Below, in pieces: positions 8,368-62,989 of a DNA stretch of 64,000 nt (position 1 is the first letter of the stretch; each line of letters starts with the position of its first letter). Source of the DNA: Sipunculus nudus (Eukaryota; Annelida; Sipuncula; Golfingiida; Sipunculidae); the NCBI GenBank assembly GCA_026874595.1, contig CM049306.1, positions 14,405,019 to 14,469,018 of the forward strand, in the 5' to 3' direction. The notes under the pieces are model-generated. The model was given only the letters and a program-made list of their open reading frames with translations, was not told the origin of the DNA and did not search any database. Made by a program: the position numbers and the translations under genes.

Positions 8368-10406
8368 ACAAGAGGCCCATGGGCCATGACACTCAGCTGA
8401 TTTTGACTGGTTTCTCATTTCTTTTATTAATGTTATATATTGTCTAAGAGAATAGCCTATGGCTAATGATACTATGTTGAACATGAATGGAAAATAAAAA
8501 TTTCAGGATTCATAGGAGACTTGCCAAGGACCCCCTTGGATTTCACAATAGAAGGTTCCAAGGAAAATGGATACAATTTGTACCCTGTCTTTCTAGGGGG
8601 CTCAAAATCTTGTTTCTGGTCCATAGCTCACAGAATATAGGTCACAATGACCTAATTTTAAATTTCCAAAGGAGATTTGCCCAGGACCTAGGCCTAATGC
8701 ATACAATTTGTACCCATCTGATGTTATGGGTGTTCAAATCATGTTTTTGGCCTGTCAAGTGCAGGTTTCCAGTGGGATTTGCCAAGATCTCCCTGGATGT
8801 TGCATTGGAAGATTGTAGGGCTTAAGGATACAATATGTACCCTATCTGACTGTATTTGACATGTATAATCAGAATTAAGTTACTTAATTTCAGGATTCAA
8901 AGGAGACTTGCCAACAACCTCCCTAGACTTTTCAACAGAAGGTTCAAAGGAAATTAGATACAATATGTACCTTGGCTGTCTGTGTGCTCAAATTCATATT
9001 TCTTTGGATTATAGCCTGTTCACCATGACCTAATTTCTGGTTATCAAAGGGATTTGCCTGTAACCTCCCTGGATGTTGCTTCCTGGATAATTCTAGGCCT
9101 GACATTATGGGTGCTCATATGACACCTCTTCCCCTGTAGGTTGCAGAATACAGGACACAGTGACCTTATTTCATGTTTCCAAGTAAAAATTTGCCTAGGC
9201 CCATCCTGGATGTTATGATAGTTCTAGGCCTGATGGATACAATTTGTACCCTGTCTGTGAGGGTGCTCATATGACACCTTTTTCTATAGGTCACTGAATA
9301 TAGGTCATGGTGACCTAATTTCAGGTTTTCAAGGACATTTGCCAAGGCTGTCATAGAATATTAGGTCAGATGATTCTAGGCCTAATGGACACATTCTGTG
9401 CCACATCTGACCGTCTGTGTGCTCAAACCATTTTTCAGCCCACAGGTCAGAAGATATAGGTCACCGTGATCTAATTGCAGGTTTCCAATCACATTTGCCT
9501 AGGACCTCCCTTTATTTTATGTTAGAAGATTCTAGGCCTAAAGGATTCAATTTGTGCCCCGTCTGACCATCTGGGTGCTTATATGACATCTTTTCCTACA
9601 GGTCGCAAAGTTAGGTCATAGTGACCTAATTTCAGGTTTCCAAGGACATTTGCCTAGGACCTCCCTGGATTCAATTTGTGCCCCATCTGACTGTCTGAGT
9701 GCTTATATGACATCTTTTCCTGTAGGTTGAGAAATATAGGTCAAAGTGACCTTATTTAAGGTTTCCAAGGATATTTGCCCAGGATACTCTGAATATTACA
9801 TTAGAAGATTCTAGGCCTAATAGATACAATATGTGCCCTGTCTGACTGTCTGGATGCTCAAAATCATATTTTTGGCCCATAGGTAAAATAATATAGGTTC
9901 ACCATGACCTCAGGTTTCAAAGGGGTTTTGCATAGGACCTTCCTAAAAATTATGTTAGAGGATTCTAGACCTAATGGCAACAAAATGTGCCCCATCTGAC
10001 TATCTGGGTGCTCAAAATCATGTTTTTGCCCTGTAAGTTGCAAAAAATAGGTCACCATGACCTAATTTCAAGTTTCCAAGGAGAATTGTCTAGGACTTTC
10101 CTAAATATTATGTTAGAGGATTCTAGACCTAATAGATACAAATTGAGCCCCATCTGACTGTCTGGGTGCTCAAAATCATGTTTTTGGCCTGTAAGTCGCA
10201 AAATATAGGTCACCATGACCTAATTTCAAGTTTCCAAGGAGATTTGCCTAGGACCTCCCTGGACGCATGGTAAGAAATTTCTAGGTCTAACAGTTACGAT
10301 TTGTGCCCTGTTAATTGACCCGGCCGGACTGCCTAACAACCAGACAGACGACAGACAAAGTGTGATCACTATAGCTCAGATGACTTACAGTCAGCTGAGC
10401 AAAAAA
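8368..10406 (+). mobile_element. Complete group A1 element with about 12 degenerate monomers
   Basis: The 5' tip ACAAGAGGCCCATGGGCC is followed by the inner arm CTCAGCTGA (8392-8400). The 3' hairpin AGCTCAG..GTCAGCTGAGC spans 10373-10400. Inner arm and 3' arm are reverse complements. The core repeats a unit of about 125-165 bp marked by 'gtcaccatgacctaatttcaggtttccaagga' variants near 8648, 8885, 9020, 9155, 9300, 9460, 9613, 9738, 9895, 10050 and 10207. There is no transposase, so it is non-autonomous. Confidence 0.8.
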
Positions 10407-10906
10407 TATACTTGAAAATTTGAAGATATGTGACACTGCAAATCAAATTATAAATTTAATTGTGAGGTCCAGCTGAACTGACAAATTTAATTATTTATTG
10501 CATATCTTACATTTCCAAGTCCTCAGCACATGACTGTATGACAAAGACATGTACCTGATATTTAATTAACAAGAACAGCACAGCACCAGGCACATTTATA
10601 CAAGAAAAAGTTCATATAATTCAAAGGATTTCTTCTCTGGGAGAATATATATTATGTGTATCTTAATAAAAAAAATAAAATGAAACAAAAATTCATCGTC
10701 CTTCAGAAAAAAATAACAATGAAAATGTACATGGGAGTGACATTGAGTGTATGTCACCTGTTACAGTATGTTAATATCTAAGTTGATATGTGGGCACACT
10801 ATCCAGACTTTAGCCACTTAAACCTGACAAGCAAGTTATTTAATAATTGTTATTTACATAATACAGGTGGAATAGTGGATTAAGCAAAGCTCTGTGCGAG
10901 GAAGAT

Positions 10907-11000
10907 TTAGTGGACACTTGCATGTGGAAGCCACAGATCAACAGACTCAAGCTGGTCCAACTGCTGATCCATCATAAGTGGGCTGGCCCCCATAGTGTCT
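10907..11000 (-). CDS. Candidate terminal exon (weak)
   Basis: A minus-strand frame opens after acceptor CTGACAG and encodes MGASPLMMDQQLDQLESVDL and a few more residues before TAA (10907-10909). It is compositionally protein-like. However, two plus-strand frames across the same DNA are also open (one after 'aatacag' at 10866), so the strand is undecided. A minus-strand AATAAA lies near 10492. Confidence 0.2.
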
Positions 11001-11396
11001 CTGTCAGTTTAACAAACTGGTCTTAATCAAATGCCTAAAGAGTATGACAGCATCACGCTAATGTTATGAATAGTAATTACAACTGCAATCGGACATTACA
11101 TCTGGTCTGTATATGGTATGAGTCTAGAAAGGGAACAGAAGGTCAAAAGAACTATTACTTTTTTTAAGAAAAACCTAGGATAAGAAAAAATACGGCACAC
11201 TTTTGCCACACCAGATTTTTACTGAGATTGATTTCTAACCTTAATCATCATTCCCAGGCTTCCACTACCACATCCTCACAAAAATTTAGTAAAAATTCAA
11301 CTGTTTGTTTAGATATCTAGAATGGTCCATGCTTTTGATAATAATTAAACAAAGGTACAAATTAAAACTGTGCCTGCATCTGAATCCAACTCAACT

Positions 11397-11510
11397 CTAA
11401 TGTGTAATCATGCAACCTGTTATCTGCTTTTCCAAGAAATTTATTTGGAACTCCTGCATATTTTCATAGAGATCTGGTACATAAACAACACAAACTAATA
11501 TGCAAACTGA
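11397..11510 (-). CDS. Candidate exon with strong acceptor
   Basis: The acceptor is excellent (TTTTGTCTGTTTTGCCTTTTTTCAG), followed by about 37 codons that include VPDLYENMQEFQINFLEKQI and end in TAG (11397-11399). A possible donor ACAG|GTTGCA at 11417 would make it an internal exon. The protein was not identified. It shares the strand of the candidate at 10907, but the phases do not fit directly. Confidence 0.25.
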   Translation of the reverse strand, partial: SVCILVCVVYVPDLYENMQEFQINFLEKQITGCMITH

Positions 11511-12468: not shown

Positions 12469-13170
12469 ACAAGGGACCCATGGGTCACTGTGCTCAGCTG
12501 AAGTTGACCTTGAAGATAAAAATCTAAAATAATATCAAATGGAGATAAAGTGTAAGAGGAAGAGGTAATAAAGGCCATGGTTGGTTTATATGATTGGTTT
12601 GTATTGATGAGCAGGAAATTGTTGCAAATAATATTTTGTGACCTGACCATACGGGAGGGTTATTGGGGTGTTGATATGAGAGTAACTGTACACCTGTCAC
12701 AGCAGGGGATCTCCCCCAGTGACTGTAACAAATCAGAAACCCGGGTAAAGCTGACTTCCAGTGACCTGGAGTGGGACCCTGTATCTGTAATCTGTAATCA
12801 AAGCAAATCCTACAATAGAGCCTCAAGAAAAAAAATCAATAACTAGCTTAATTTTCAAGCTTTTATTTTCAAATTTCAGATTTAAACTAATTAAATATTT
12901 ATGTTTACATGCTGTGAAAATTAAATCAATGGTACTTACAGGAAAAAAAGTGCCATGGTCAAAGTTGGGCAAAATTTAGGTACTGATTTTATAGGAGATC
13001 TTGGGGACATCTAACATTATGCTGAATTTTGGATTCCTAGGTCTTACGGTTTCAAACGTGCCACATCTACAGACAGACAGACGGACAGACGGACAGACAG
13101 CTAGACGGACAGACGACAGACAATGGACCACAACTATAGGTCAGATTACTTGTAGTCAGCTGAGCTAAAA
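12469..13170 (+). mobile_element. Group A1 element, about 700 bp
   Basis: The 5' tip ACAAGGGACCCATGGGTCA runs into GCTCAGCTGA, and the 3' end TAGTCAGCTGAGCTAAAA closes at 13170 after a GACAGACGGAC tract. It carries the 'gatatgagagtaactgtacacc' module (12674-12790) and the last part of the A1 core module. The first 185 bp match 58820-59005 closely. Confidence 0.8.
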
Positions 13171-13375
13171 CACATTTGTACCTCTCTATTTTTTTCTTAT
13201 TTACCAGTAATAAATTTTATGCAGTTGCCAGAAGAATATTGTCCCAAACAAATACTCAGTGGCAGGGAGTGAGGAAAGTTACAACACCTTTTGATAAACA
13301 TACAGGATACAAAATTTAATCCAAAAGTGCTTACACGTGAAAAAAGTTTTATTCATAATTACTGAATATTTAAAA
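13171..13375 (+). repeat. 205-bp block shared with 41073-41270
   Basis: From 'acacatttgtacctct' to 'ttcataattact' the two copies are nearly identical. In both places the block directly follows an A1 3' terminus. A distant relative precedes 60263. It may be a further module of the family or part of a duplicated segment. Confidence 0.75.
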
Positions 13376-13392
13376 ACAGACAGAGAGATATA

Positions 13393-14298
13393 ACAAGTGA
13401 CCCATGGGTCATGACGCTCAGCTGACTGGGAAGAGATTTGCAAAAGGAAATTTTATCATCTGAATGGTAGTATTGTTATGAAGTGGTAAATTTAAATATT
13501 GGTAATCACACTAAAACTTAAAATTCACAGAGTGACAAACACTAAGATCAGTGTCAGAAATTGATGAGGACTGATATTCAGACAGAGCCTAAGAATTATT
13601 AATGGTTATCAGACAACCAAGTATCTAATGGTAATTCAGTATGTTTGTAGAGCCTAAATGTACTCTAAAAAATTAGCTCTAAATTGGTTTTTATGATGAG
13701 GCAGGCAGATTATGTTTACAGAGTTTGGAAATAGGACTTGTAGGTCAGTCTATAACTGGATGTATGTGCGGTCAGACTTGGGATTTTCCATAGAACTTTT
13801 GTCCAATCAGATCTCACGAAAGTTAGGAAGAACACTTACAACTCTGATGTAATTGTGACCTACTTTGAGTCATCCAATAAGGTTAAGCTTTTATAACGAA
13901 ATGCAGAAATATGGATATGTACGTCTCATATGTCACGTGAAAGCTCTGTCACAAAACTATCTGTAGTGCGCACTGAGAGTCAGAGAGTCGGGGAGGCTGG
14001 GCGGCTCTCTCAGAGAGAGAGAGACTGTCCCAGACCGCTTGCTATTGAATAAAGACTTCTATCATCAAACTGGTCTATTGGAACATTGTCTGCCACGCGC
14101 ATCAGCAACTGCTTGTGATACAGTGTGGGGACATCCCCAACCCCACATTGTATCAGTATATAACCATTCAACTGAAGCATCAAACAGATTAACCAACAGG
14201 CTGAGATTGTGTCTGTATTAATATATCTCAAAAATAGAGAAAAAATTCGTAAACTTTAAAAAAATACAGGTGGCTTCACCAGTCTGCAAAAACTAATA
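13393..14298 (+). mobile_element. Group A1 5' portion with LTR-like insertion
   Basis: The tip ACAAGTGACCCATGGGTCA and the arm CTCAGCTGAC are intact. The right end (14225-14290) is an A-type monomer tail ('aatacaggtggcttcaccagtctgc'). The middle, about 13740-14170, is unrelated sequence (next entry). No 3' hairpin is present before the next element begins. Confidence 0.55.
13740..14170 (+). mobile_element. Possible solo LTR (promoter-like insert)
   Basis: Two CCAAT boxes ('gtccaatcag' about 13800, 'catccaataagg' about 13870), a TATA-like 'ttttataac' (about 13890), a GC/AG-rich leader and AATAAA near 14046 occur in the order expected for U3-R-U5. A 14-bp foldback (GATACAGTGTGGGG with CCCCACATTGTATC) lies near 14117-14155. 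TG..CA ends and a target duplication could not be fixed, so a captured promoter is equally possible. Confidence 0.3.
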
Positions 14299-16943
14299 AC
14301 AAGGGACCTATGGGTCACGGCGCTCAGCTGTTATATATGATAAAAAAATATGATTTAGAAATGAGGCACATGCTGGTTTTGTGTGGTAATAAGTATAAGC
14401 TGTATTATGAGTTGTTGTTGTTAAGCTTATGTATGATTTTGATAGTACCTTTGGAGACAGAGAAGAGAATTGATTTCATTTATTTTATTAACAAATGGAG
14501 TACTATTGTCACACAGATTTTGACTTGGCCATATAACTTATAAGCAGAACATATAATATAAGAGTTTAACTATTTATTAAAAAAATTACAAATATTGTCC
14601 CAGATATAATTTTTATTAAAAATAATAAGAGAATCGTATGATTTTTAAAATGAAATATAACTGAAATGATTATTAAAATAATATTAAAGAATATATTCAT
14701 GAATGCATTCATGAATACATTTGGAAAGTATTTGCACTGGTATTCATATACTTTCATTTTTTCCTGAATTCCCATTCTTTATGCAAGAAATTTTATAATG
14801 GAGTACATATTCATATTCGTATTTAAATACAATTGCAAAGTATTCCCACCATGTCTGGTATTTATTCAGTTTTCACCAAACAATGGTGTTGAGAATCCAG
14901 AATGTACAAAATTCACACATTTAAATAATGATCATAAGTACCTGGTTTTATGGCTTTTATTTATATTTTAAAAAAAATAAATGACATATATTTATTTTGG
15001 ACTAATTTCATATCAATATACACACTAGACACAGTAGGAATCTAGATTAATATTATCAACTGCATCTTTGTCTATCATTAATTTCCTTCATATGATCCCT
15101 AATGATTAGTAATGAATAATATGATTTACTTTTTTATTATTAAAATTTAACTGAAAAATGCCATAGGTGACTGCATGGTGTTATTTGGAATACGTGACAT
15201 TCTATCCATCAATACAAGATTCTTATATCATCAGTAACTGCAAGTTATTTCCCTATTAATATAAACTAACAAATTCCTTTTCTATTTTTCTTTAATTTGT
15301 TATTAAAAACCAATAAAAATTGATTAATTTATTGTTATGTTGTTGGTTAAAACTACTTGATGAGTTGGGTTGGACACCTGGATCAACTGTGGCTGGCCAT
15401 AAGCTGCCTTGCTGCCCCGGTATCTGCCTCGCCTCAAGCGTGCATAATTTGCTGAAAGTTCAACAAGGTCAACATACAGGTGACTCAAGAGTGGCTGGAG
15501 AGAGCCAAGGTCTGACATGGTCTCATAATAAAAGCTACAATTTTTGGCCAATTTCTTTCAGCTTTCTAAACTAAAAAGCTGAAATCCTTGTGTGTGCATG
15601 ATATGAAAATTATATAAACAGAGCTCACATTAAACAAAAGTGAAATGGTCAAAGTTGGGCAAAATTTAAGGTACTAATTTTATATTTATACTAATAACTT
15701 ATAAAATTTTAAAAATTCAGAACTAATTTTGGGTATTCAATTGAATCTTGATTAAATAATCTTACATCCCTGACAAAAAATCTCTAGCTTCAGCAAGCCC
15801 CTTGTTAAGGGAGTAAATATATTTCTTGATTTTTTACAAAGTGCATTATGTTTGGGCCCATAACTTAAAACAATTACGCAATACTGACATCATTTCTGGC
15901 ATGTGCACAGAGAATGTATTGAAAAACATGTATATTATATATGATTAAAGTCAGATCAGTGGTTTTGATATTAGGCAGTATTGAAGTGTAATAATGGGTT
16001 TTTAATTGAAAAATGAAGTTTTTCATTAATATCTCAAAGGTATTAAGTCCTAGTGACCAAATTCTTGGCATGGTAGGGAATTTTAGAGACATCTAATTGT
16101 ATGCCAAATTTTAGGAACTGAGAGCTTAAGCTGGGGAGCTGAGCTCTTGCAAACTGCATAACACTAGCCTGATGTAAACAATATGTTACATGGTGCTTGA
16201 AAACTTGAATAAAATCTACAGTTTTTGATCAACTGGTTTCAAATTTTTGGTGTTAACAGACAAAATGCTAACAAAAACATGCTGAGAAAATTAAATCCAC
16301 AGTACTTACAGGAAAAAAACGTGCCATGGTCAAAGTTAGGCAAAATTTAAGGTACCAATTTTTTGTTTTTGCTAATATTTTAAAAAATTTAAAAGATTTT
16401 GATCTAATTTTGGGTATACAATTTAATTTTGATTAATTAAAGTTATATTACTTGAAAAAAAGTCCATAGCTTTAACAAGTTTTGTGTTAAGTGATCAAAT
16501 ATCTTTCCTGATTTTTTACAAAATGCATTATGTTCTGGCCCATAACTTTCTTAAATTATATAATACAGACATAATTTCAAGCATGTACATAGGAACTATA
16601 TAGAGGAATATTTATGGTAAATATGAGGAAAAACAGATGAGTGGTTTTGATATTAGGCAGCCCTAAAGTGTGAAAATAGGTTTTTAATAAAAAATTGAGG
16701 TTTTTCCCTAATTTCTCAAAGGAACAAAGTCGCAAAGACCCAGTTTTCGGCTTGGTAGGAGATCTTGGGGACAGCTAACATTATGCCAAATTTTGGATTC
16801 CTAAGTCTTACGGTTTCAAAACGTGCCACATCTACGGACGGACGGACGGACGGACGGCACGACGGACGGACAGCCGGACAGACGGACGACGGACAATGGA
16901 CCACGACTATAGCTCAGATGACTTATAGTCAGCTGAGCTAAAA
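14299..16943 (+). mobile_element. Group A1 element, 2.6 kb, copy 1 (full length)
   Basis: The element runs from ACAAGGGACCTATGGGTCA plus GCTCAGCTG to the hairpin and AGCTGAGCTAAAA at 16943. It aligns over its whole length with 38446-41072 at roughly 90% identity. The core module of about 600-700 bp is present twice in tandem (15570-16130 and 16190-16940). A GGACGGACGGAC tract (about 16838-16890) precedes the 3' hairpin. Open frames inside (for example 14310-14543 and 15320-15574) shift between the copies and are not coding. Confidence 0.85.
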
Positions 16944-25856: not shown

Positions 25857-27231
25857 ACAAGGCCTATGGGCCTAATGCAAACCTGTGCAAAGTTTGGGAG
25901 TATGAATGAAGGTTTATTTTTAAAATTTTATATTGATCCTCTTTTGTCCTGCATATCTACCTTAGTCATTATGATTTTAGCAAAATGGACATTTCAGACC
26001 TGCACATTTTGGACTAGGACATTTTAAAACTAGGATGTATCAGTCAGGATATTTCAGATATGTTCTTTCTGCCAGGGAGGATTATTGGGAAAAATGAAAG
26101 GACAATTTGGCAGCATGGTTTCGGAGAAGAACATTTTAAAATGTTTTTACCTTTTTACCCTATAAAATCTAAGAAAATTCAGTTAGCCATGAAATAAACA
26201 ATATCCGATAGAATTTTTTTCATGACTATTTTTTTGCAAAATATTTGGTGATGTTAGCTCCTGCCCTTTTTGAGATAGCTATGACACATGACAGATGATG
26301 GACAACTCCACACCATCGCATAAGCTCACAGATATGGTAAAAATGCAAATCAAGTTTTTTCAAACAGTTGAAAGATATAGTTCCACTAGTTCTAATCTGG
26401 ACATTCTGTTAGACACGTAGTCTAGACGATGTGTCTAGACAGATCGTCTAGACACAAAACAGAGCCAGGTCAGTTGCCATGGTGATGTCTGGACCTCACC
26501 TGGTTAAAATGAGTGACCTCTTGACTTGGCATGTTGAAACTTGGCATGTTGTAAAATGTGTTTTCAAACACTGAAAGCCTTTTTCAATTGGCTACACTGC
26601 TTTTATAGAGCCGCATTTACCCAATCTATTCTAATAAAACTGGCAGAACCCTACCATAGAATATTTCTTGTAAAGCTTACCAGTTTCATCATAAAACAGT
26701 GTATAAGCTAGAAAAGTCTAAAATTACATTTTTGCTTGTAAAAAAAAACAGATCAATGGAGGTGGCACCACCAATATCTCAATTTCAGATATGACTTATA
26801 TGACAAACATTGGCATAAAATTTGGTGATGATAGCCATTTCTGATAATGTAATTTTAGTGTGCTTTTTTGGACAGATGACTAAGTTCAACCTCCTGTAAC
26901 TCAGCCAAAAATCTCGAAACTGGAACCATTCCAAAATCCTTGAGAGAGATTGTTCCAGGGATCATTTCTGTGAAATATTGGACAATTTGGCTGGACAGTT
27001 TTAGAAATGAAGATTTTTAAAGCTTTTTTCCTTTACAATCTAAGAAAATGCAGTTAGAAAAAAATAAACAAGATATGATAGAGTTTTTCAGGTTACTGAT
27101 TATTTGCAAAAAAATTTGGTAATGCTAGCTCCTGCCATTTTTGAGATAGCTATGGTTTATGTACAGATGTGGCATGGACACATGACGCACAATGCCGCAC
27201 CATCGCATAAGCTCACAGGTTCGCTAAAAAA
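25857..27231 (+). mobile_element. Complete group A2 element
   Basis: The 5' tip ACAAGGCCTATGGGCCTAATG is followed by the inner arm AACCTGTG. The 3' end is GCTCACAGGTTCGCTAAAAA (27211-27230), whose CACAGGTT is the exact reverse complement of the inner arm. An internal, altered terminus lies near 26325. The element contains the A2 core 'gagagagattgttccagggatcatttctgtgaaatattgg'. Confidence 0.7.
26420..26453 (+). promoter_or_regulatory. Three GTCTAGAC palindromes in 13-bp register
   Basis: GTCTAGAC occurs at 26420-26427, 26433-26440 and 26446-26453. GTCTAGAC is the palindromic Smad-binding element known from TGF-beta/BMP signalling. The even spacing is striking, but it sits in a mobile element and activity is unproven. 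Confidence 0.5.
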
Positions 27232-36951: not shown

Positions 36952-38140
36952 ACTAGAATACGGGTAGTCGACAAGCGACTACGTGTATCCGCCTAAATCA
37001 GAGTGGAACGGATGAAGTGAGGCATGGATTGAGTGGCAAGGGGAAATAGAGTGAAGTGTTGCATATTAGCATGGATGTCTGCAGCCAAATGGTGTATGTA
37101 GGTTGCGCCACCTACCACAAAATCCAGAAAGCTGTCCAAGTTGTATACATATGCAAAATTTGAAGCAGATAAGTCAAACCACTATATGTTTATGAGTGAT
37201 TTTAGCCCGTAGCAGACAAACAGATGGACGCTGTGCAAAAATGGTTGAAGGTGGCACCACCAGTTTTGCGTATGATAAAGAGCTATGTGAGAACTATACA
37301 CATGCAAAACTTTGGCCCAATCGGTCAAACGGTTCCCAAGATATGAGCTTGGATGTCTGCTGCATAAACTAGAATGCAGGTGGCGCCACCTGTCATAAAA
37401 TCAAGAGAGCTGTCAGGGATGTATAAACCTGCAAAATTTAAGGCAGATATGTCAAACCACTGCCGAGATATGAGTGCTTTTATCCCATGGCAGACAAACA
37501 GACGGGAGCTGTGCAAAAATGGCTGCAGGTGGCGCCACCAGTTTTGCGTATGATAAAGAGCTATGTGAGATCTATACACATGCAAAATTTTGGCCCAATC
37601 GGTCAAACGGTTCCCGAAATATGAGCTTGGATGAGCCTAAACGTGAATGTAGGTGGCGCCACCTGTCATAAAATCAGAAAAGCTATCCAGGATGTATACG
37701 CATGCCGAATTTCAGGTGAATTAGTCAAATCACTGCAGAGATATGAGTGATTTTAACCCAAAGGCAGACGAACAGATGGACACTGTGCAAACATGGTTCC
37801 AGGTGGCGCCACCATTTTCTGTGTATGTTATAAAGCTCTCAAAGGGGTAGATTTGTGCAAAAAAAATTTTCCTGATCCGTCAAATGGTTCCCGAGATATG
37901 TGGGTTTATGTGTGGAAACAGACGAACAAACTGACGCAGAGCGCAGAGGAAAGGTCAGAGGTCAAAACAAAATCGGGCGCAGCAGTTCACATGTGACCTG
38001 AACATAATCCCGGGTTTAGTAAAATTCCGCCCAGCGGTTACGGAGGAGTTCTCCGGACACCTAAGTGGCGGCGGCGGCGGTGGGGGCAGCGTGCAGCTGA
38101 AAACATAGAATCCGCAAAACTCTGTTTTGGCGGATACAAT
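36952..38140 (+). mobile_element. Complete group B element inserted in a group A host
   Basis: The start ACTAGAATACGG is followed by hairpin GTAGTCG-acaag-CGACTAC (36964-36982). The inner arm GTATCCGCCTAAATCAGAG (36985-37003) is complementary, with few mismatches, to the 3' arm CTCTGTTTTGGCGGATAC (38120-38137). The 3' hairpin starts at ATCCGC (38110). The core holds alternating monomers with GGTGGCGCCACC near 37380, 37530, 37653 and 37802. The uninterrupted host sequence at 34131-34150 gives the empty site. Confidence 0.8.
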
Positions 38141-41275: not shown

Positions 41276-41879
41276 AATTCTTGCCATGGTCAAAGTTGGG
41301 CAAAATTTAAGGTACTGATTTTATTTTTATGCAAATATCTAAATAAATTTACAAAATTCAGATCTAATTTTGGGTTAACAATTGAATCTTAATTAAACAA
41401 TGTTATATACATAAAAAAATAGTCTCTAGTTTCAAAATTATTCATGTAAACTGAGTATATATTTTTTCTGATTTTTTTACAAAGTCCATTATGTTCGGGT
41501 CCATAACTGAGTGAATCTATACTTAATGGACTTAATTTCTGGCAAGTATATAGGAAATATATAGGAGATTACTTCTGGTAAATATTAAGAAAAACAGAGA
41601 AGTGGTTTTGATATTAGGCAGTCCTGAAGTGTGATAATAGGTTTTTAATGGGAGGTTTTTCCTTAATATCTCGAAGGAACAAAGTCATACTGACCAAATT
41701 TTTGGTATGGTGGGAGATTTTGGGGACATCTTAACAGCATGCCAAATTTTGGATCCGTAGGTCTAACGGTTTCAAAACGTGCCAGTCTAACGGATGGACA
41801 GACAGCCAAACGGATGGACAACAGACAATTAATGGACCACGACTATAGCTCAGATGACTTACAGTCAGCTGAGCTAAAA

Positions 41880-45577: not shown

Positions 45578-47490
45578 ACTAGATATTTCTTGGCACCACA
45601 GGTGCCAAAGTATCGCCAGACAATTAATCCCCCCCCCCCCCTCACCCTTTAAGAATAGTCCCCCCATCTTCAGCAGCATATACTAACATTTGGCAAGCGA
45701 CTATGGTTTCTTCCATCTATCAACTCTCCAAGATGGATGTATATGCCAAATTGGAGACCAACACATTGAAGGACTCCTCAGATATGCGCAATTTTCATCT
45801 AAAACAAATATACAGATGGACGCTATGGCATAACATTTGCAGATGGCGCCACAAGTCATGCGTACAAGATGGAGGAGTCCAAGATCTATAGATATACTAA
45901 ATTTCAGGCCAATAGGCCAAATCACTCCTGAGAAAAGGGCATTGATTTATTCAACAAATAAAGGGAAGGAAGGTGGCGCCACCTGTCTGTTTTATGAGAA
46001 AACTTTCAAAGATAGATGGATAATTTCAGACAAATACCCTGAACTACTCCAGAGATAAAAGCAATTTCACCAAAAGCACATGTACAGATTGACGCCACAG
46101 AAAATTGATTGCAGTAGCGCCACTAGTCGTATGTACAAGATGGAAGAGTCCAAGATCTATGGATATGCACAATTTCAGGCCAATAGGGCAAACCACTCCT
46201 CAGAAAAGGGCATTAATTTTTTCTACAAACACATAAAGGTAGGTGGCGCCACCTGTTTGGTTCATGAGAAAACTTTCAAAGATGGATGGACATGCCAAAT
46301 TATGAACAAATACCTTGAACCTCTCTGGAGATATAAGCAATTTTCACCAAAAGCACATGTACAGATGGACACCAAGGCAAAGCGATTGCATATGGTGCCA
46401 CCTGTCTTGAGTAAAAGATGGGGGAGTGCAAGATCAATGGATGGGCACAATTTCAGGCCAATAATGCAAATCACTCCTCAGGACATTAATTTATTCTACA
46501 AAAACAGGAAGGTAAATGGCCCCACCTGTCTGGTTTACAAGAAGAAATTCCGAGATGGATGGATATGTCCAATTTCAGACCAATACCTTGGACCACTCTG
46601 GAGATATGAGCAATTTTCACCCAAAGCACATTTACAGATGAACACCATGGCAAACAATTGCAGATGGTGCCACCAGTCTTGAATACAAGATGGAGGTATC
46701 CAAGATCTATGTACATGCACAATTTCAGCCCAATCTGTCAATAAGTTTTAGACTTATAATGCTCACAGTAATGTCAAGTGGCAATAGAGTATCAAAAGGC
46801 ACAAAAACAAGAGAAAGACAGAAGCTGGTGCCACCTGTCTTCCGCAAAAGACAAAGATATCCAAGATCTTTGGTCAATTTGATTTTTTTACCAATATGCA
46901 TCCCTTATTGAAATATTTATGATTTACCGTGGTTTTCACCATATATGGCTTTATTCAAGCTCAAGGCCACTCTCATAGGAAAGGTCATGACCCCAATTTA
47001 AATATACATCATCCCATAACCCATGACTATGTATATGCATAGTATGAGATAAATCTGTCCATTTTTTTTTTACTAATAATGCTCACAGCACTGTTAAGTG
47101 GCAATGACAGGGGTATTAAATGGCACAAAAACAAGAAAAGGATAACAGGTGGCACCACCAGTCTCTGGCATATGACTACACTATCTAAGATCTTTGGTCA
47201 AGTTGATTTTTGGATCAATCCATGCAAAATTTCTTGAGATATTTAAGAATTTGTGTGATTTCCCCCAAAATGGACTTTCAAAGTCAAGGTCACGCTCCTA
47301 GTAAAGGTCATGACCCCATTTTAAAAAGGCTTTGTCCTCTCACCCATATCTATGCACATGCCAAGTTTGGTAAAGATCAATATAATATTTTTGGAGTTAT
47401 CGCGTCCAAACGAAATCTCTGCGGCGGCAGCGGAGACAGCGCCACCGTGCCTTAACCATAGTATCTCCAGAGTTTGTCTGGTGATACAAT
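45578..47490 (+). mobile_element. Complete group B element, 1.9 kb
   Basis: The start ACTAGATATTTC is followed by a perfect hairpin TTGGCACC-aca-GGTGCCAA (45590-45608). The inner arm GTATCGCCAGACAA (45610-45623) pairs 13 of 14 with the 3' arm TTGTCTGGTGATAC (47474-47487). A C run (about 45630-45642) and GCGGCGGCAGCGG (about 47421) occupy the same relative sites as in other B copies. The core is a set of 130-250 bp monomers, about 45720-46740; they produce the 200-codon open frame 46080-46682, which is not a gene. Confidence 0.85.
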
Positions 47491-48480: not shown

Positions 48481-49563
48481 TTAAATCTATATAATTAATA
48501 CGGAGTTGGGTATTTTACTAGACCACGGTTTACCTGCTTCTGTTCTGATTTGACTCTCCAAATTCGGCAGACGTATCGGTGGTGTGCTCTTCTAAGAGAA
48601 GTTTGTTATATTTTGTGGGATTATGCCGTATTAAGCTGAATAATTAATAATTTTAATATTTCCCCATTAGGTACCCCTATTTCTTTTGTGCTGCAAGGTC
48701 CTCCAAGCCTGTGATGCTTTTTCAGGAGGCGCCTCGGGGGTTTTCACTGGCCTGTTAAGACCGTGGCCAGAGTGCATGTCCTACCCAAAAGGCATATCCG
48801 TGCAATACGCGGTCACGCGGGTCCACTATAACCCCATTGATCCCCAATATCCATTGTAACGCCTCTAAAGGAGTTTCTCATCTCAAAAGGAAGTAAAGGT
48901 TTTTAATCCAAAGACCACATGAGTCCGCTTTCAATGCGAGGGCTTTTCAGTTTGGTTAACACTGGACACTGAGTCCAGTAAAGTGACCACCGTTTGACAA
49001 TTTTTTTATGGGTTACAGGTATGTTGATTTTTATACATTCAAAAATATCTTTCCATGATAACCATGCTTTCAAAAATTCGGCCAAGTCATGTGGTTTTAT
49101 GAAGTTTTTTTTTTCAAAAGAAGCCCCACAACTTAATTATCATTCAGGTTGGGGTTGGGGGGGGGGGGTGGGGGTTCACATCTGACTATACTGAATAAAC
49201 ATCCGTGTTTTACGATGTCGCCTGAGCGTCAACTAATACAAAGCATCTTTCATATAATTTCACATTAGAATGCTTCTTTATACAATCGTTATATCTATGA
49301 TATTTCCCAAGCAATGAAGCTGTGAAACCTATGTTGTTTATTGGGAAAAAAATTTTTTTTGTGATTTCTGGATTAGAATAAATTTTCTTTCTATGTTGAT
49401 ATTTTTGGGGAGCATGTTCCTGGAGAACTCAGCAGAAGTAATCTTTATATCATATAGGTGAAACACATGACAAAAGTTCCTGCAAAACCTTAGAATTTAA
49501 ATATGCGTTTTTACAAAAATAAACATAAGATAGAGCTGTGGCTTTTCCACGGGAGCAGTTAGT
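48481..49563 (-). mobile_element. Group C repeat, inverted copy 2
   Basis: This is the reverse complement of the outer parts of 19217-21710, about 1.08 kb, lacking the internal duplications of copy 1. Its 5' tip on the minus strand reads ACTAACTGCTCCC followed by hairpin CGTGG-aaaa-GCCAC. A stretch reading YFFCAARSSKPVMLFQEAP is preserved in both copies with a few changes, which hints at an old coding segment. Confidence 0.65.
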
Positions 49564-50331: not shown

Positions 50332-52372
50332 ACAAGTGACCTGTGGGTCATGACGCTCAGCCGACTGACATGTTGATAATATGTCTTTGCACAGACAACC
50401 AATTAAGATAGGTGGCATCATTTTTCATGCATATTAGCTTAAGTTCATCAAGACCCATAAGCACAACAAATTTGATGACAATCCAACCAGCCTTTCATGA
50501 GGAATCTGGCAATTTGTGTGTATTTTGCATTATTTCTGGGGTGCTCAAACATACCCCAAAACTCTGAGAATATAGGTTAACTGTGACCCAATTTCAGGCT
50601 TCTGGGGAGAACTTTTTAGGAACTCTCAGGATGTCAAGTCAGAAGATTCTGGGCCCCATGGTTATGATTTGTGCCCTACTTTGGTATCCAATTTTTCATT
50701 ATTCTTGGGGGTGCTTATAAGCCCCATAGCTCAGACAATATGAGTGACAGAGACCTAATTTCAGGTTTCCAAGGAGACTTTTTATGGAACTCTCTGGATG
50801 TAATGTGAGAAGTTTCCAGGTCCAGCAGTTACGATTTGTGCCCTGTTAACAGATGACGGCATCTTAAGAGGTCTCAAAAATAGCAAAAAAAAAAAAAGTA
50901 AAAAAATCGAAAAAATACAGGTGGCACCACCAGTCTGCAGAAACTGATTAACACTCCATGATCAATATCCATGCAAAGAATCATGGTGATCAATGCATTA
51001 GTTGTTTAGATATTTGAGCTTTTGTATCAAATTTTTCATTATTATGGGGGTACTTCGGAGCCCCATAGCTTAAAGAATATGGGTAACAGAGACCTCATTC
51101 CAGGTTTCCAAGATTTTTCATGGACCTCTCTGGATGTAAAGTTAAAAGATTCCAGGCCCAGTGGTTACGATTTGTGCCTTGTTAATGGACAGACGGCCAT
51201 ATGGCTGGACGGACGACAGACAAAGAGTGATCGCTATAGCCAGATGACTAACAGTCAGCTGAGCTAAAAATCATAAAAATTCTAAAAATATAGGTGGCAC
51301 CACCAGTTTGCAGAAACTGATGAAACACTCCATGATCAATATCCATGCAAAGAATCAAGGTGATCAATGCATTAGTTGTTCAGATATTTGAGTTTTTGTA
51401 TCAAATTTTTATATTATTTTTGGGGGTAATTCGGAGCCCCATAGCTTGAAGAATATGGGTAACAGAGACCTCATTCCAGGTTTCCAAGGAGATTTTTCAT
51501 GGACCTCCCTGGATGTAATGTGAGAAGTTTCCAGGTCCAGCAGTTACGATTTGTGCCCTGTTAACAGATGACGGCATCTTTAGAGGTCTCAAAAATAGCA
51601 ACAAAAAAAAAGTAAAAAAATAGAAAAAATACAGGTGGCACCACCAGTCTGCAGAAACTGATGAAACACTCCATGATCAATATCCATGCAAAGAATCATG
51701 GTGATCAATGCATTAGTTGTTTAGATATTTGAGCTTTTGTATCAAATTTTTTATTATTATGGGGGTACTTCGGAGCCCCATAGCTTAAAGAATATGGGTA
51801 ACAGAGACCTCATTCCAGGTTTCCAAGATTTTTCATGGACCTCTCTGGATGTAAAGTTAAAAGATTCCAGGCCCAGTGGTTACGATTTGTGCCTTGTTAA
51901 TGGACAGACGGCCATATGGCCGGACGGACGACAGACAAAGAGTGATCGCTATAGCCAGATGACTTACAGTCAGCTGAGCTAAAAATCATAAAAATTCTAA
52001 AAATATAGGTGGCACCACCAGTCTGCAGAAACTGATGAAACACTCCATGATCAATATCCATGCAAAGAATCAAGGTGATCAATGCATTAGTTGTTCAGAT
52101 ATTTGAGTTTTTGTATCAAATTTTTATATTATTTTTGGGGGTAATTCGGAGCCCCATAGCTTGAAGAATATGGGTAACAGAGACCTCATTCCAGGTTTCC
52201 AAGGAGATTTTTCATGGACCTCCCTGGATGTAAAGTTAGAAGATTCCAGGTCCAGTGGTTATGATTTGTGCCTTGTTAACAGACAGACGGCTGGATGGAA
52301 AAATGGCCGGACAGACGACGGACAAAGAGTGATCACTATAGCTTAGATGACTTTCAGTCAGCTGAGCTAAAA
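50332..52372 (+). mobile_element. Group A1 element with duplicated 715-bp unit
   Basis: The tip ACAAGTGACCTGTGGGTCA with CTCAGCCGAC opens it; 'ttagatgactttcagtcagctgagctaaaa' closes it. Two almost identical 715-bp units (about 50795-51509 and 51510-52224) each contain two monomers and one internal A1 terminus (51265, 51980). The very similar frames at 51022-51267 and 51737-51982 reflect this duplication, not a gene family. Confidence 0.85.
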
Positions 52373-53317
52373 ACAAGTGACCCATGGGTCATGATGCTCA
52401 GCCGACTGGCATGTTGACCACATGTTCTTGCACAGGCAACAAATTAAGATAATGTAGGTGGCATCATAGTTCGTGCATATTAGCTGAAGTTCATTAAGAC
52501 CCATCATCACACCAAATTTAATGACAATCCATCCAGCCGTTCCTGAGGAATCTGGTAATTAGTATTTTGTATTATTTCTGGGGTGCTCAAACATGGCCTG
52601 TTAAACAGATGATATAGTTCACAGTGATCTAATTTCAGGTGTCTGAGGAGAACTTTGGAGTAACTCTCATCATGTCAAGTAAGAAAATTCTAGGTCCAAT
52701 GGTTATGATTTGTGCCGTGCTTTGGTGTCAATTTTTCCATTATTCAGGGGGTATTTATAAGCCCCATAGCTTGAAAAAATATGGGTAACAGAGACCTAAT
52801 TTCAGGTTTTCAAGAAGACTTCTCATGGACCTCCCAGGATTGTCAAATAAGAAAATCAATGGTTATGATTTGTGCACTATTAACTGATGTCCGCACCAAA
52901 TAAGGTCTAACAAAGAGAGAAAAAAATTTGTTAAAAATTTGAAATAAAATGAAGCGCCACCAGTCTGAAGGAACTAATGAAACACTCCATGACCTATATC
53001 CATGCAAAGAACCATGGTGATCAATGCATCAGCTGTCTAGATACTTGAGCTTTTGTATCAAATTTTCCATTATTCTGGGGGTTACTTTAAAGCCCCTTAG
53101 CTAGAAGAATAGAGCTTATATAGGATAAAAGAGACCTAATTTCAGGTTACCAAGGAGATCTTTCATGGACCTCTCTTGATGTCAAGTAAGAAGATTTCAC
53201 ATCAATCAGTTGCGATTTGTGCCTGGTTAACAGATAGAGAAACGGACAGCTAGATGAACAGACGAACAAAGAGTGATTGCTAAAGCTCAGAAAAATTACA
53301 GTCAGCTGAGCTCAAAA
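52373..53317 (+). mobile_element. Group A1 element joined head-to-tail to the previous one
   Basis: ACAAGTGACCCATGGGTCA follows directly on GCTGAGCTAAAA of the preceding element with no host DNA between. It contains about two to three monomers and a mutated terminus, 'aattacagtcagctgagctcaaaa'. Confidence 0.8.
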
Positions 53318-54672: not shown

Positions 54673-55978
54673 ACAAGGCCTACAGGCCTAATGTAACCTG
54701 TGCAATGGGATACACATCAGGTATAATATTCCATGATAACAAGCTTAACCATTTTTTGAACAATGTAAGTACTAAATATTTTGAACCCAGAGCACAAGCA
54801 CCATGCAATTACACAAAAGTTAATCCTGAATCTGGCATGGATGCACACAACACACCAATGATTGTAAGTGGCGCCACCAGTCTGGTGTATGAGAAAGCCA
54901 TCGAAGTTGCATGGACATTCAAAATTTTAGGCAGATACTTCAAACAACTGTTGTGCTATGTGCACAGATGCATGAAACCCAACACAATTGTAGTTGTTAC
55001 CACAAGTCTTGCATACAACAAAACTACTTGACATGAATGGACATGCACAATTTAAGGCTGACATGTCAAATCACTCCTGAGAAATAAGCAGGGACATACA
55101 CTGTGCAAAAATTATTATAGGTGGCTCCACCAGTGTTGTGTATATTAAGCTATCTGAGATGTATAGAGACATGAACAATTTCAGGTTAATACATCAAACT
55201 TCTCAGTCGGGTGCACTTGGATGACCAAGCTCAACTGAGGCAGGCAGCTGGTCCAAACTGAACTGAAACTAATATGCAGCTGCAACTACTGTACTGGGTG
55301 AACTCTTGACCTGTATCTGGTTGCACTGATTGAACTCTTGAAGTGATGCCTAAGCTGATACAGTTAGCAGTCTGCCAAAGCCATAAACATAGACAGACTG
55401 ACACTTGGCCTTTTGCCAAGATGGTTGTTAGTCTGCAAAGCTATTTATAGATACAGAAAAATTCTTTGCCTGTTGCCAAATCTATTAACACATACTGAAA
55501 AACTTTTATTTTAGAGGATAGGTCCATGGCCTGTTTGTGGCACTGTCTATTGAATGGGTTAGGTATAATCTAGAAGTCATAACCTGTCATTAAGACATTG
55601 GAGCAAATATCTGAGGTTCTATAACAAAATTTCACCATCATGCTGTTGAATCATGCCAAAAATCACAAAACTGGAACCATTCAAACAAATCTGAGAGAGA
55701 TTGCTTCAGGGATTATTTCTGTGAAATATTGAACAATAAAGCTGGGCAGGTTTGTACAAGAAAGATTTTTTAAGGTTTTTCAGCTTTTTCTCAATGAAAT
55801 CTAAGTGAATGCAGTTAGCCAAGAAAATAAGCTCAATCTGATAGATCTTTTGCATAAAAATTGATGCTAGGTCCTGCCGTTTTTGAGATAGTATGGGTTA
55901 ACATACAGACGAGGGATGATGGATGATGGCCACCAGTGATGCCACACTATCACATAAGCTCACAGGTTTGCTAAAAAA
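54673..55978 (+). mobile_element. Complete group A2 element, 1.3 kb
   Basis: The tip ACAAGGCCTACAGGCCTAATG is followed by inner arm AACCTGTG (54695-54702). The 3' end is GCTCACAGGTTTGCTAAAAA with CACAGGTT at 55961-55968, the exact complement. The interior has monomers with GTGGCGCCACCAG (54868) and the A2 core (55650-55975). A foldback CTTGGCCTTTTGCCAAG lies near 55405. Confidence 0.8.
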
Positions 55979-59120: not shown

Positions 59121-59153
59121 TTGTCTAATTGAACCTACTTTTTTTATAATATA

Positions 59154-60050: not shown

Positions 60051-60539
60051 TATATTATTAAATATATGTATTTTTTTATGAAATATATACAGTTGAAATG
60101 TAACTAATTTCCCCAGTCCTCAAATGAAAGGATTTGGTGGTGGTGGTGGTGGGAGAGTTACAACATATCTGTATTGTTATAGTGTATATACGTACAATTT
60201 TCACTTTATTTAACAATGCTTACAGGATAAAAAAGGTTCATTTATAATTACTTAATATTTAAACAAGGGACCCAGGGGTCTAATGTTCACTCTGTGAATT
60301 ACTGTGCATATTGGCAGGTGATCAAAACTAGAATATCAGCAGAAGCTGACAAAAGCCCTCAGCCAAAAGAACAGTGTTTAGAGGTGGTAACAGTAACAAG
60401 TACTAAATATCTGTTTTCACATGGATGTATATCTGTACATGTCTCAGTTATAAACCTAAAATGGAGAGGTGTGTACCATGAATCACAACAATCCACCATA
60501 TGCTTCCTGAAAAATAAGCTTCTAAATTTTATTCTATTA

Positions 60540-61290
60540 TAAGCTCTGTGACCTTGAAAAGTAGGTCAAGGTCACCCATCTTCGAACTTGACTGAGATTT
60601 TGTTGATATACATCTTCACCAAAGAAATAAAATTCCTATTGTGAATCCTTTTAGAGATATACAGCTCACAAGGCCAAAGTTGAAAAATCTAAGAAAAATT
60701 CATTAAAAATCAGAAATTGTAGGTGGAGCCCCCAAACTTGTGCATCAGTTACAGACCATCAGTCCCTATGATCATAGTAAGTATTGTGAAAATCCACCCA
60801 ATGGTTCCTGAGAAATAAGCTTCTAAATGTTTTTTCTATAACCAGCTCTAAAACGTAGAAAAATAGGTCAAGGTCACCCATCTTCAAACTTGACCAAGAT
60901 TTTGTCAATATACATCTTCACTGAAAAATAAAATTCCTACGGTGAATCCTTTTAGAGATATCCTGCTCACAAGCCCAAAGTTGAAAAATCCGATAAAAAT
61001 TCATTAAAAATCAGAAATTGTAGGTGGAGCCACCAAACTTGTGTAGCAGGTACAGACTATCAGTTCCAATAATCATAGTAAGTTTTGTGAAAATCCACCA
61101 AATGGTTCCTGAGTAATAAGCATCTTAGTGTTTTTCTATAATCAGCTCTAAAATGTAGAATAATAGGTCAAGGTCACCCATCTTCTAACTTGACCGATAT
61201 TTTGTGGATATGCATCTTTACAGAGGAAATGAAATTCTGACGGTGAATCCTTTTCAAGATATCCTGCTCACAAGGTTAAAGTTAACGGAC
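60540..61290 (+). repeat. 300-bp tandem monomers with AGGTCAAGGTCAC
   Basis: 'aggtcaaggtcacccatctt' recurs near 60566, 60867 and 61166. TCAAGGTCA is the extended half-site bound by ERR/SF-1-type receptors. Confidence 0.8.
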
Positions 61291-61326
61291 GCTGGACGGA
61301 CAGACGGACAGCTTGGGTGACGACAA

Positions 61327-61355
61327 TAGCCCATCAGCCTAAGGGCTGAGGGCTA
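61327..61355 (+). other. Internal group A4-type terminal hairpin
   Basis: TAGCCCATCAGCC, loop TAAG, GGCTGAGGGCT, AAAA. It has the same form as A1 termini but a different arm. A related hairpin lies at 63535-63569. It suggests that an A4 end was fused inside the A3 element. Confidence 0.65.
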
Positions 61356-61489
61356 AAAAAATGTCACAGAAAGATCAGTCCAAGAGTCTCAAGGGAGACT
61401 CTGTTTTGGCAGATTATAACAAATAAATACTTAATGACATATTATGGATTAAAGCAGAAAAGACCATTACAGCTTTCTGAAAGTAGCTA

Positions 61490-62530
61490 AACACAGGTAG
61501 CGCCACCTGCAGGTCAAAATCATTAAGCAGTCACATGATCAATATTCCTGTGATATTTGAAACTGAAGGCTGCAGCAGTTCCTAAGATATTTGGTAACAG
61601 ACAATACATCATGTATGGAAACACATCAAGTTGTTAAATTTTGCGATCGACAAAATTTGAAGTTCTGTAGAGATGCCATCTTGAGAATGACTTGACTGAA
61701 TTTATACTCAAATTATTCCCCTTCCTCTAAGAAACTGTTGACTATGAAATGAAGGCCAAAATGGTAATACTTTGTGACTTATCTTGTAAGAAGTGGAAAA
61801 GACCAATCATCCTGCAGAAAGTAGGTCAACAAAGGTGGCGCCACCTGGAGGTCAAAATCATTTAGCAGTCACATGATCAATATTCCTGTGAAATTTGAAA
61901 CTAAAGGCTGCAGCAGTTCCTCAGATATTTGGTAACAGACAATTCATCATGTATAGAAACACATCAAGTTGTCATATTTTGCAATCGACAGAATTTGAAG
62001 TTCTGTAGAGACGCCATTTTGAAAAGAGACTTGATTGAATTTATACTCAAATCATTCCACTTCCTTTAAGGAACTGCTGACTATGATATGAAGGCCAAAA
62101 TATTTAATACTTTATGACTTTATTTCGGAAGAAGTGGAAAAGACCATTTCATCCCGCAGAAAGTAGGTCAACACAGGTGGTGCCACCTGGAGGTCAAAAT
62201 CATTTGGCAGTTATATAATTAATATTCCTGTGAAATTTGAAACTGAAGGCTGCAGCAGTTCCTAAAATATTTAGTAACAGACAATACATCCTGTATGGAA
62301 ACACATCAAGTTGTCATATTTTGCAATCTACACGATTTGAAGTTCCGTAGAGATGCCATCTTGAAAATGACCTGACTGATTTTACACACAAATTATTCCC
62401 CTTCTTCTAAGGAACTGCTGACTATGATATGAAGGCCAAAATATTAATACTTTATGACTTATCTTGGAAGAAGTGGAAAAGACCATTATGTCCTGCAAAA
62501 AGTAGGTCAACATAGGTGGCGCCACCAAAA
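61490..62530 (+). repeat. 340-bp tandem monomers with GGTGGCGCCACC
   Basis: The start 'ggtggcgccacctggaggtcaaaatcat' recurs near 61497, 61832, 62177 and, partial, 62516. The copies are close in sequence. Confidence 0.85.
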
Positions 62531-62989
62531 GCTTATTTTTTCATGTTCACCCCATGATCATTAATTCTGCAAAGTTTCATGAAGGTAGCTGCTGTGGCTG
62601 TTGAGATATTTGGTCACAGACGGTGGACGGTGGACAGTGGATAGTGGCCGGCGGACACTGCGCCATGGCATAAGTTCACAGAGTGAACTAAAAAGGACAG
62701 ACAGACTAGTAGACAAACAAAGCTGATATATATAAAGTTTCAATTATTTATTAATTATATCATTTTTTTTTAAAGTTTGACATCTGCAATAATTCACAAC
62801 TGAATATAAAATTTGCTTTCATATTTCTGACTTAAATAGCTTAATTCCAGACACATACAGCATATGAAAGTTATTTTAACAGTGCTTATAGGAAAAATTT
62901 TATAATTAATATATATTTAATGATAACGGAGAGGTGATGGACAGAGCTGATCAATTTTTGTTCCATTTTCCTAAGGCAAGAATATGTTT

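Follow-up and report, generated by a model that had tools for sequence, protein, structure and literature searches.

The 64,000-nt window of the Sipunculus nudus genome analysed here (GCA_026874595.1, contig CM049306.1, positions 14,405,019 to 14,469,018) contains repeated elements in which a short arm at one end mirrors an arm at the other, and it raises the questions of whether this matching is real, what the elements are, and why they share one strand.

The elements read correctly on the other strand, where the order of parts is a subterminal inverted repeat (subTIR), an imperfect inverted repeat (IR), a microsatellite, a tandem core, a second subTIR and a palindrome. The orientation given in the initial annotation was therefore reversed: what it called the 5' arm corresponds to the 3' subTIR, and what it called the 3' hairpin comprises the 5' subTIR and the IR. 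The true 5' end begins with oligo-T in A-type elements, followed by the subTIR and, in most families, the imperfect IR, a part of at most putative function to which A2 and A3 have nothing comparable. The 3' end consists of the second subTIR, a palindrome and CTTGT or CTAGT. ACAG/ACGG arrays, a GTCC-type microsatellite, adjoin the A1 hairpin ends, and the cores have units of ~145–340 bp. The short palindrome near the 3' end is, for example, GACCCATGGGTC or TTGGCACC.ACA.GGTGCCAA; it is not recognisable in the B0 element of the window and is present in fetched B copies.

Seven families were distinguished, and all ends assigned to them in the window lie on one strand. The A1 element at 8368..10405 (minus strand; ends paired by proximity) has its palindrome and subTIR, the true 3' end, at 8368–8400, its tandem core at 9108–10254, and its hairpin end, i.e. 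the subTIR and IR of the true 5' end, at 10371–10405. The A1 ends entered in the pairing test were those of 13393..16943 (minus strand; ACAAG end at 13393, hairpin end at 16909–16943), a stretch that may be one element or two, given another A1 ACAAG end inside it at 14299. Besides 14299, A1 ACAAG ends lie at 12469..12501 (minus strand), 32877, 36196, 38446, 50332, 52373 and 58820, and A1 hairpin ends at 41845..41879 (minus strand), 1494, 13136, 27561, 34984, 41037, 51235, 51950, 52338, 53282 and 63482. Two A1 ends form a head-to-tail junction at 52372/52373. The A2 element at 54673..55976 (minus strand) has the arms AACCTGTG / CACAGGTT; a second pair of A2 ends, probably belonging together, spans 25857..27229 (minus strand; ACAAG end at 25857, hairpin end at 27196–27229), and other A2 hairpin ends are at 2490, 25679 and 26309. 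A3 (60263..62693, minus strand; palindromic arm GTTCACTCTGTGAA, core 61457–62526) holds the nested A4 (60327..61358, minus strand), which has an ACTAG end with the palindrome TCAGC..GCTGA, the arm AGCCCTCAGCC at 60354–60364, a core at 60490–61274 and a hairpin that by eye has one bulged base and terminates in GGGCTAAAA. The B0 element at 4493..6791 (minus strand) starts with the arm GTATCCCCAGAC at 4493, its outer terminus not being recognisable, and continues with a tandem core at 4645–6136 and a hairpin end at 6763–6791 reading GTATCCCCCGAC-TTT-GTCTGGGGATAC-AA; another B0 hairpin end, at 183..216 (minus strand), belongs to an element whose remainder lies beyond the window. B1 is found at 45578..47489 (minus strand; arm GTATCGCCAGACAA, core 45722–46734) and B2 at 36952..38139 (minus strand; arm GTATCCGCC, core 37096–37827). 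A Pfam search with eight of the nine listed window open reading frames of at least 110 aa gave no hits.

As the initial annotation had claimed, in every family the 5' arm and that family's own 3' arm are reverse complements, and the at least five subfamilies it proposed became seven with the addition of B0 and A4. The arms it quoted were located in the window, and several require corrections of sequence. The A1 arm CTCAGCTGAC occurs once, at 13417, most other A1 ends having CTCAGCTGA or a sequence one base off; the unbracketed arm GTATCCCAGACAA is absent from the window, and GTATCGCCAGACAA is present. The arms of the A2 copy at 54673 match over 8 bases. The copy at 25857 reads GCAAACCTGTG, which agrees over 11 bases with hairpin ends at both 2508 and 55961 but differs by one base from its own probable partner, at 27214.

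The pairing score, defined as the best ungapped complementarity between the two ends of one element, was 12, 8, 14, 11, 14, 11 and 11 for A1, A2, A3, A4, B0, B1 and B2, respectively, part of the A3 match being trivial as its arm is itself a palindrome. Shuffled ends (n = 300) gave a mean of 5.3, a 95th percentile of 7 and a maximum of 11. The true pairing of ends, with a sum of 81, is the only one of 5,040 permutations to attain the observed score (next best 77, mean 46.9). B0 and B1 ends cross-match, at 10 and 11, and the score is not blind, since the ends had been located through a search for complements, by the earlier reader and, for A4 and B0, here. Less biased are the A4 boundaries, established from empty sites (see below), and a set of six B termini that were located solely through the terminus sequence, in eight fetched stretches; five of the six have the exact arm. 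The A3 arm is intact in 6/6 copies read, the query that retrieved them having contained it. Chance is ruled out as the source of the matched arms by the shuffles and permutations, and the matching is confirmed as real and as differing by family.

The elements very probably belong to several non-autonomous Helentron (HINE) families of the 1.43-Gb genome, and the subTIRs of each family would be recognised as a set. Excerpts of Thomas et al. (2014, PMC4067079) set Helentron families by an identical subTIR of at least 11 bp and count seven such families in a mite, and those of Vojvoda Zeljko et al. (2020, PMC7492417) report 11 HINEs in oyster, including one related group with element-specific changes of subTIR, IR and stem-loop. 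Hence family-specific subTIRs had already been published, and the specificity-pair pattern cannot be called undescribed, as was first suggested; the contribution is the addition of several families to a known class. In S. nudus, subTIRs of ~11–15 bp were found in seven families, with 8 bp in the tested A2 copy and, in B1 and B2, scores of 11 that include mismatches. Searches returned 10,540 A1 ends, 9,481 A2 ends (at most one mismatch; an earlier A2 5' pattern was too strict and gave 8 copies only) and 1,399 B0 ends, and 0 with each reversed-pattern control.

Likened by description rather than by sequence, and as far as the excerpted account goes, Cg_HINE of Crassostrea gigas (PMC7492417) shares the part order, a subTIR of 11–12 bp, a complementary IR, a GTCC-type microsatellite, a tandem core, a 3' palindrome, an oligo-T target and the existence of many elements with their own subTIRs. 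The mite HINE-Mo/Helentron and Drosophila DINE-1 elements, as excerpted from PMC4067079, are similar in having families defined by subTIR, palindromic subTIRs (compare A3), subTIR-plus-IR types (compare A1), and T-rich insertion that leaves the target unmodified. They differ in that the inner subTIR lies 38–60 nt from the terminus in mites and by eye ~23–34 nt in A1, and in the CTAGT of the B-type ends here.

The base preceding A-type ACAAG ends is A in 21/21 and that following CTAAAA ends is A in 15/17, which corresponds to T on the element's own strand. B-type ends, CTAGT, have A before and T after, although 8/11 of the T flanks were fixed by the search pattern. For A4, all 40 scored matches to the empty site (from 711 first-look candidates) agree with the joined flanks at 156 or more of 161 bases. 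Six empty A3 copies read have a run of A6–A7, and in the filled copy the element is preceded by 4 A and followed by 7 A, so that the A4 boundaries are confirmed by A3 copies with an empty site. This one insertion, compared with six empty copies, lies in an oligo-A/T run and left no further duplication; T-rich insertion without target duplication is thus seen for A4 in A3, and the A-type flanks agree.

The elements do not fit canonical Helitrons (5' TC, 3' CTRR, A/T insertion): A-type elements have TTTTAGC..CTTGT and insert in T-rich DNA, and B-type elements have CTAGT with A/T flanks but no 5' TC, both types bearing subTIRs. B-type ends resemble canonical Helitrons more than A-type ends do, which speaks against the Helentron assignment: their palindrome stands about twelve bases ahead of a CTAG end, and they have A/T flanks that are partly fixed by the pattern.

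In the proposed mechanism, a Rep/helicase from an autonomous relative would recognise a family's matched pair of subTIRs as a unit and copy or peel off one strand, presumably by a rolling-circle route, and the freed strand would be joined into T-rich DNA with no target duplication. Each family would require its own match of transposase to subTIR, hence both ends would change together. Rep-type genes exist in the genome: among the PF14214 matches listed there are 143, seven of them with open frames of >2,200 aa, compared with 0/14 control genomes. No autonomous partner sharing the ends described here was found: six exact arms (all but A4) were absent from the flank stretches of four PF14214 loci, where the ends of those elements were not located.

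Joint change could also arise if the arms at opposite ends of an element paired physically, in synapsis or in a switch between a 5' hairpin and a 5'-3' duplex, with pairing rather than protein recognition as the driver. In the A1 hairpin an A.G mismatch is conserved (IR base A in 20/21, partner G in 20/21), while the other end has the pairing C in 31/34; B0 likewise has GTATCCCCCGAC in the IR and GTATCCCCAGAC at the other end in 5/6 termini, and the A4 hairpin has its bulge, so that in A1, B0 and A4 pairing between the ends gives a better duplex than the hairpin does. However, a match would equally be expected of two sites to which one protein binds; copies of a family stem from few masters, so the counts are not independent; B0 hairpin ends were chosen by an exact pattern, which fixed the IR; and A2 and A3 are without a comparable IR, that of B lying outside the scoring script. 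We regard end pairing as unlikely. Miniature (MITE) or other terminal-inverted-repeat cut-and-paste elements, the first label of bivalve pearl elements, share the short non-coding form, inverted repeats near both ends and tandem core, but are highly improbable here, given subterminal repeats, asymmetric ends and, at the A4 empty site (one insertion), no duplication beyond the oligo-A run and hence no fixed-length target-site duplication.

The common strand extends beyond the window. On chromosome C1, listed copies of three families agree in 48/48 over 0–1.2 Mb, and 152 copies over 0–7.6 Mb form 20 strand runs versus 62.6 expected, or 15 versus 31.5 when thinned to one copy per 30 kb; domains were seen at 0.06–1.14 Mb and 14.0–15.3 Mb. 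A2 copies share the strand of an A1 copy lying within 20 kb in 21/22; A1–A2 pairs agree in 181/208 at 30–200 kb and 849/1,228 at 1–3 Mb, and adjacent A1 copies of different sub-variants <100 kb apart do so in 51/57. SINE and Helentron strands show no link (12/23). Families that differ in their ends share this apparent strand choice across hundreds of kb, which would point to a single-stranded target at forks. We tentatively propose, at somewhat less than even probability, that Helentrons insert into one strand per chromosomal domain, probably the single-stranded lagging-strand template, which would explain the shared domains; orientations would then be a fossil map of fork direction.

Several results run contrary. 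An end at 44492 whose ACTAG and palindrome read on the minus strand, found in a generic scan, is opposite to the ends of the seven families, outside which it falls; it looks real, and no matched other end was found within 5 kb. A B2-like end is opposite to a neighbouring A1 element at one genomic place (L008/L015). Off C1 or beyond its first 20 Mb, cross-family pairs 100–300 kb apart are alike in 1/4. B–B pairs at 20–100 kb share a strand in only 6/15, B–A2 pairs at 100–200 kb in 30/52 and A2–A2 pairs at 30–100 kb in 39/57; the A1–B nearest-neighbour test gave 9/11 (p 0.074), and the A2-to-A1 test minus the first 1.2 Mb gave 16/20 (p 0.053). B thinned to 30 kb showed no significant clustering (38 runs versus 42.1 expected, p 0.20). 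A2 and B together at 7.6–16.6 Mb gave 27 runs versus 41.3 (14 of 20,000 as low) and, thinned, 23 versus 29.0 (1,357 of 20,000). Repeat-masked flanks oriented by element have no skew (GC -0.006 ± 0.008, TA -0.007 ± 0.007); the window alone has a TA skew of -0.035 ± 0.007. A prediction set beforehand, left chromosome ends '+' and right ends '-', met a one-to-one split of A3 copies near left ends (C2 0.10 Mb '-', C14 0.39 Mb '+'; n = 2). Among controls, the unthinned SINE list is nominally clustered (40 runs versus 50.7, p 0.019), a second repeat family (134 copies, 100 listed) is alike in 6/10 adjacent pairs at 10–300 kb and 8/12 of all pairs, and a tRNA-like pattern (623 copies) was too sparse.

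Local hopping, nesting, or segmental or tandem duplication would keep orientation with no strand choice at insertion. An array of five B0 ends with a spacing of ~2.7 kb at C1 1.41 Mb, the head-to-tail A1 junction, concordance greatest at short range and SINE pairs at 30–200 kb that are also alike (12/15) favour such a history, which is nevertheless doubtful in view of three families with different subTIRs on a common strand, the agreement of A1 sub-variant neighbours and the clustering that survives thinning. Orientation might instead follow transcription, if the elements entered a single strand of DNA that was transcribed or in R-loops, or if selection in genes disfavoured one orientation. 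Such an effect could act over single genes, but few genes are as long as either domain named above, and genes usually change direction within Mb-scale spans of this kind; this explanation is improbable as well.

For insertion at forks, the IS200/IS605 family offers a parallel if the replication reading is right: in excerpts of PMC5371812, fork direction sets its orientation via single-stranded lagging-strand targets. It differs in being bacterial, with an unrelated transposase, and in that a link to forks is known there versus orientation alone here. The excerpted account of Cg_HINE (PMC7492417) does not mention orientation domains. The orientation pattern carries more weight than the added families, as it bears on the target choice of eukaryotic rolling-circle transposons. 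If the proposal is true, tens of thousands of copies of several families would record, for the germline of an animal, the direction of forks and with it their origins and termination zones, and fork direction could be mapped in species where direct measurement of replication is not possible.

Both strands of the window were scanned for element ends, and end-to-end complementarity was then scored for the seven families (A1–A4 and B0–B2; n = 7). The initial annotation had described elements in which the 5' and 3' hairpin arms are reverse complements and vary in sequence between subfamilies; such arms were found. The own-pair scores were 12, 8, 14, 11, 14, 11, and 11, as compared with a mean of 5.3, a 95th percentile of 7 and a maximum of 11 for shuffled ends (n = 300). 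The true pairing, with a sum of 81, stood alone at that score among 5,040 permutations (runner-up 77), a score that is not blind because complements were the criterion for finding the ends; in this test, the ends of B0 and B1 cross-match. In a check with less bias, where termini were located by terminus sequence alone in eight fetched stretches, the exact arm was present in 5/6 B termini.

The strongest case for matched ends is A4, which is nested in the A3 element at window positions 60263–62693, in an oligo-A run 64 bases from the A3 end. The A4 5' arm, predicted from its 3' arm, has a single plus-strand occurrence in the window, directly after an ACTAG-plus-palindrome end. The nesting was established from empty A3 copies: the joined outer flanks of A4 were present in 40/40 scored matches, all being A3 copies without A4, and the empty site is an A6–A7 run in the six A3 copies read, where the window copy has 4 A, A4, and 7 A.

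In A1, the imperfect inverted repeat (IR) that forms the hairpin with the subterminal inverted repeat (subTIR) departs from full complementarity by a fixed A·G mismatch. The IR base is A in 20/21 and its hairpin partner G in 20/21, and the other end has the pairing C in 31/34. A single defect of this kind was found in the hairpin of B0 and, by eye, in that of A4; in all three families the ends match each other better than the hairpin arms do. A2 and A3 are without a comparable IR. The hairpin defect and the better inter-end match are consistent with ends that switch between hairpin and end-to-end pairing, and drift of an unimportant IR also fits the defect.

Read in reverse, the elements consist of a subTIR, an imperfect IR, a GTCC-type microsatellite, a tandem core, a second subTIR, a palindrome and the terminus, which is the published order of parts in HINEs, the non-autonomous Helentrons. 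As set out in excerpts of Thomas et al. 2014 (PMC4067079), Helentron families are defined by an identical subTIR of at least 11 bp, subTIRs of both palindromic and IR type are described, and insertion is into T-rich DNA with the target unmodified. Excerpts of Vojvoda Zeljko et al. 2020 (PMC7492417) report 11 HINE-type elements in the Pacific oyster, with element-specific changes of subTIR, IR and stem-loop in one group. Therefore, on these excerpts (PMC4067079, PMC7492417), joint change of the ends is already the basis of Helentron classification, and the earlier suggestion that the specificity-pair pattern might be undescribed is not supported. The pattern is real and already understood at class level, and the families found here add to a known class. 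The A-type ends, which read CTTGT and lie in T-rich DNA, resemble those of Helentrons; the B-type ends, which read CTAGT and are preceded by A and followed by T, tend towards the canonical Helitron form.

Genome-wide, 10,540 A1 and 1,399 B0 ends were counted by exact pattern and 9,481 A2 ends with at most one mismatch, each with an even strand split; reversed-pattern controls for the three gave no genome-wide matches. For PF14214 (Helitron_like_N), 143 matches were listed, seven of which have open frames of >2,200 aa. None of six exact arms was present in the flank stretches of four PF14214 loci; in the excerpted text on the oyster HINEs, an autonomous partner was likewise not identified (Vojvoda Zeljko et al. 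2020, PMC7492417). Large Rep/helicase elements on contigs C8, C11, C4, and C13 have ~69-base tandem repeats on the upstream side, and those of C4 and C8 also have ~330-base tandem repeats downstream.

At window positions 52338–52405, an A1 hairpin end (to 52372) is directly followed by an A1 ACAAG end (52373), a head-to-tail insertion, and at C1:1407720–1418682 five B0 ends on one strand, with a spacing of ~2.7 kb, form a head-to-tail array. Nine copies of the palindrome GGTGGCGCCACC are present in the window (17916, 37379, 37528, 37652, 37802, 45972, 46242, 61834, and 62515), within the tandem cores of families whose ends differ. Core repeats at 4645–6136 contain TGACCTTTGACCT, which we take to be similar to nuclear-receptor response elements. 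At C1:3704891–3750563, tRNA-like sequences form a regular tandem array with a ~10 kb period and alternating strands.

Every end assigned to the seven families in the window lies on one strand; the four minus-strand rows of the scan come from reading the A1 hairpin in reverse, at sites that are in the count already. Dense strand data come solely from C1 0–16.6 Mb, among the matches listed (first 100 places per list), and pair counts in the agreement tests are not independent. The first 100 A1 copies on C1 form 16 runs, as compared with 42.2 ± 4.1 expected (0/100,000 shuffles as low), and neighbouring A1 copies of different sub-variants <100 kb apart share a strand in 51/57 cases. A2 and B, with other subTIRs, are mostly in step with these A1 strand domains. 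Among the matches listed, the plus strand carries A1 29/29, A2 16/16 and B 3/3 at C1 0–1.2 Mb, and A2 14/14 and B 6/6 at 14.0–15.3 Mb around the window. Listed A2 copies share the strand of the nearest A1 in 21/22 cases within 20 kb, 31/35 within 100 kb and 32/36 at any distance (circular-shift p 0.011). For A1, A2 and B together at C1 0–7.6 Mb, 152 listed copies gave 20 runs against 62.6 ± 5.0 expected (0/20,000); when a single copy was kept for every 30 kb, the remaining 77 gave 15 against 31.5 ± 3.4 (0/20,000), and the same thinning without the first 1.2 Mb gave 14 against 27.5 (5/20,000). Strand agreement decays with distance over several hundred kilobases.

A SINE family served as the control, with 100 copies listed out of 1,210 exact matches. 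It formed 40 runs where 50.7 were expected before thinning (p 0.019) and 38 where 41.4 were expected after thinning to 30 kb (p 0.26), and its strand showed no relation to that of the nearest listed Helentron (12/23 alike within 300 kb); listed SINE–SINE pairs 30–200 kb apart were alike in 12/15. An interspersed repeat outside the seven families, at window positions 19289–21710 and 48485–49513, occurs on both strands with ~89–90% identity over longer blocks; its 30-mer has 134 exact copies genome-wide, and listed pairs 10–300 kb apart agree in 8/12.

Among the matches listed, B alone is weak (B–B pairs 20–100 kb apart alike in 6/15; thinned p 0.20), and B–A2 pairs 100–200 kb apart share a strand in 30/52. 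Listed A2 and B copies at C1 7.6–16.6 Mb are clustered unthinned (27 runs vs 41.3) and not significantly so when thinned (23 vs 29.0). Outside C1, or past 20 Mb on it, 1/4 cross-family pairs 100–300 kb apart share a strand; at one other locus a B2-like end lies on the strand opposite to a neighbouring A1 element; and of two A3 copies encountered by chance near left chromosome ends, one is on the strand that would be predicted there. Element flanks showed no composition skew. At window position 44492, on the minus strand and outside the seven families, ACTAG and the palindrome GCACTC-ACA-GAGTGC follow an oligo-A run; from its sequence this site looks like an end that belongs to an eighth family, inserted in the opposite orientation, and no matched other end was found within 5 kb.

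Since families with different ends share a strand that is unrelated to SINE strand, the data argue that a regional property determines the strand at the time of insertion. The simplest candidate for this property would be the single-stranded lagging-strand template at replication forks, insertion into which is a documented rule for bacterial IS200/IS605 in the excerpted account of PMC5371812. Transcription and local spread of copies are possible alternative causes of the domains. No report of such strand domains was found in a non-exhaustive body of literature, in part excerpts, on Helitron orientation, strand bias, and transposons and fork direction (including PMC5371812, PMC4683698, and PMC3288121). 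Thus, the matched ends themselves represent a known class, and it is the orientation pattern that merits follow-up.
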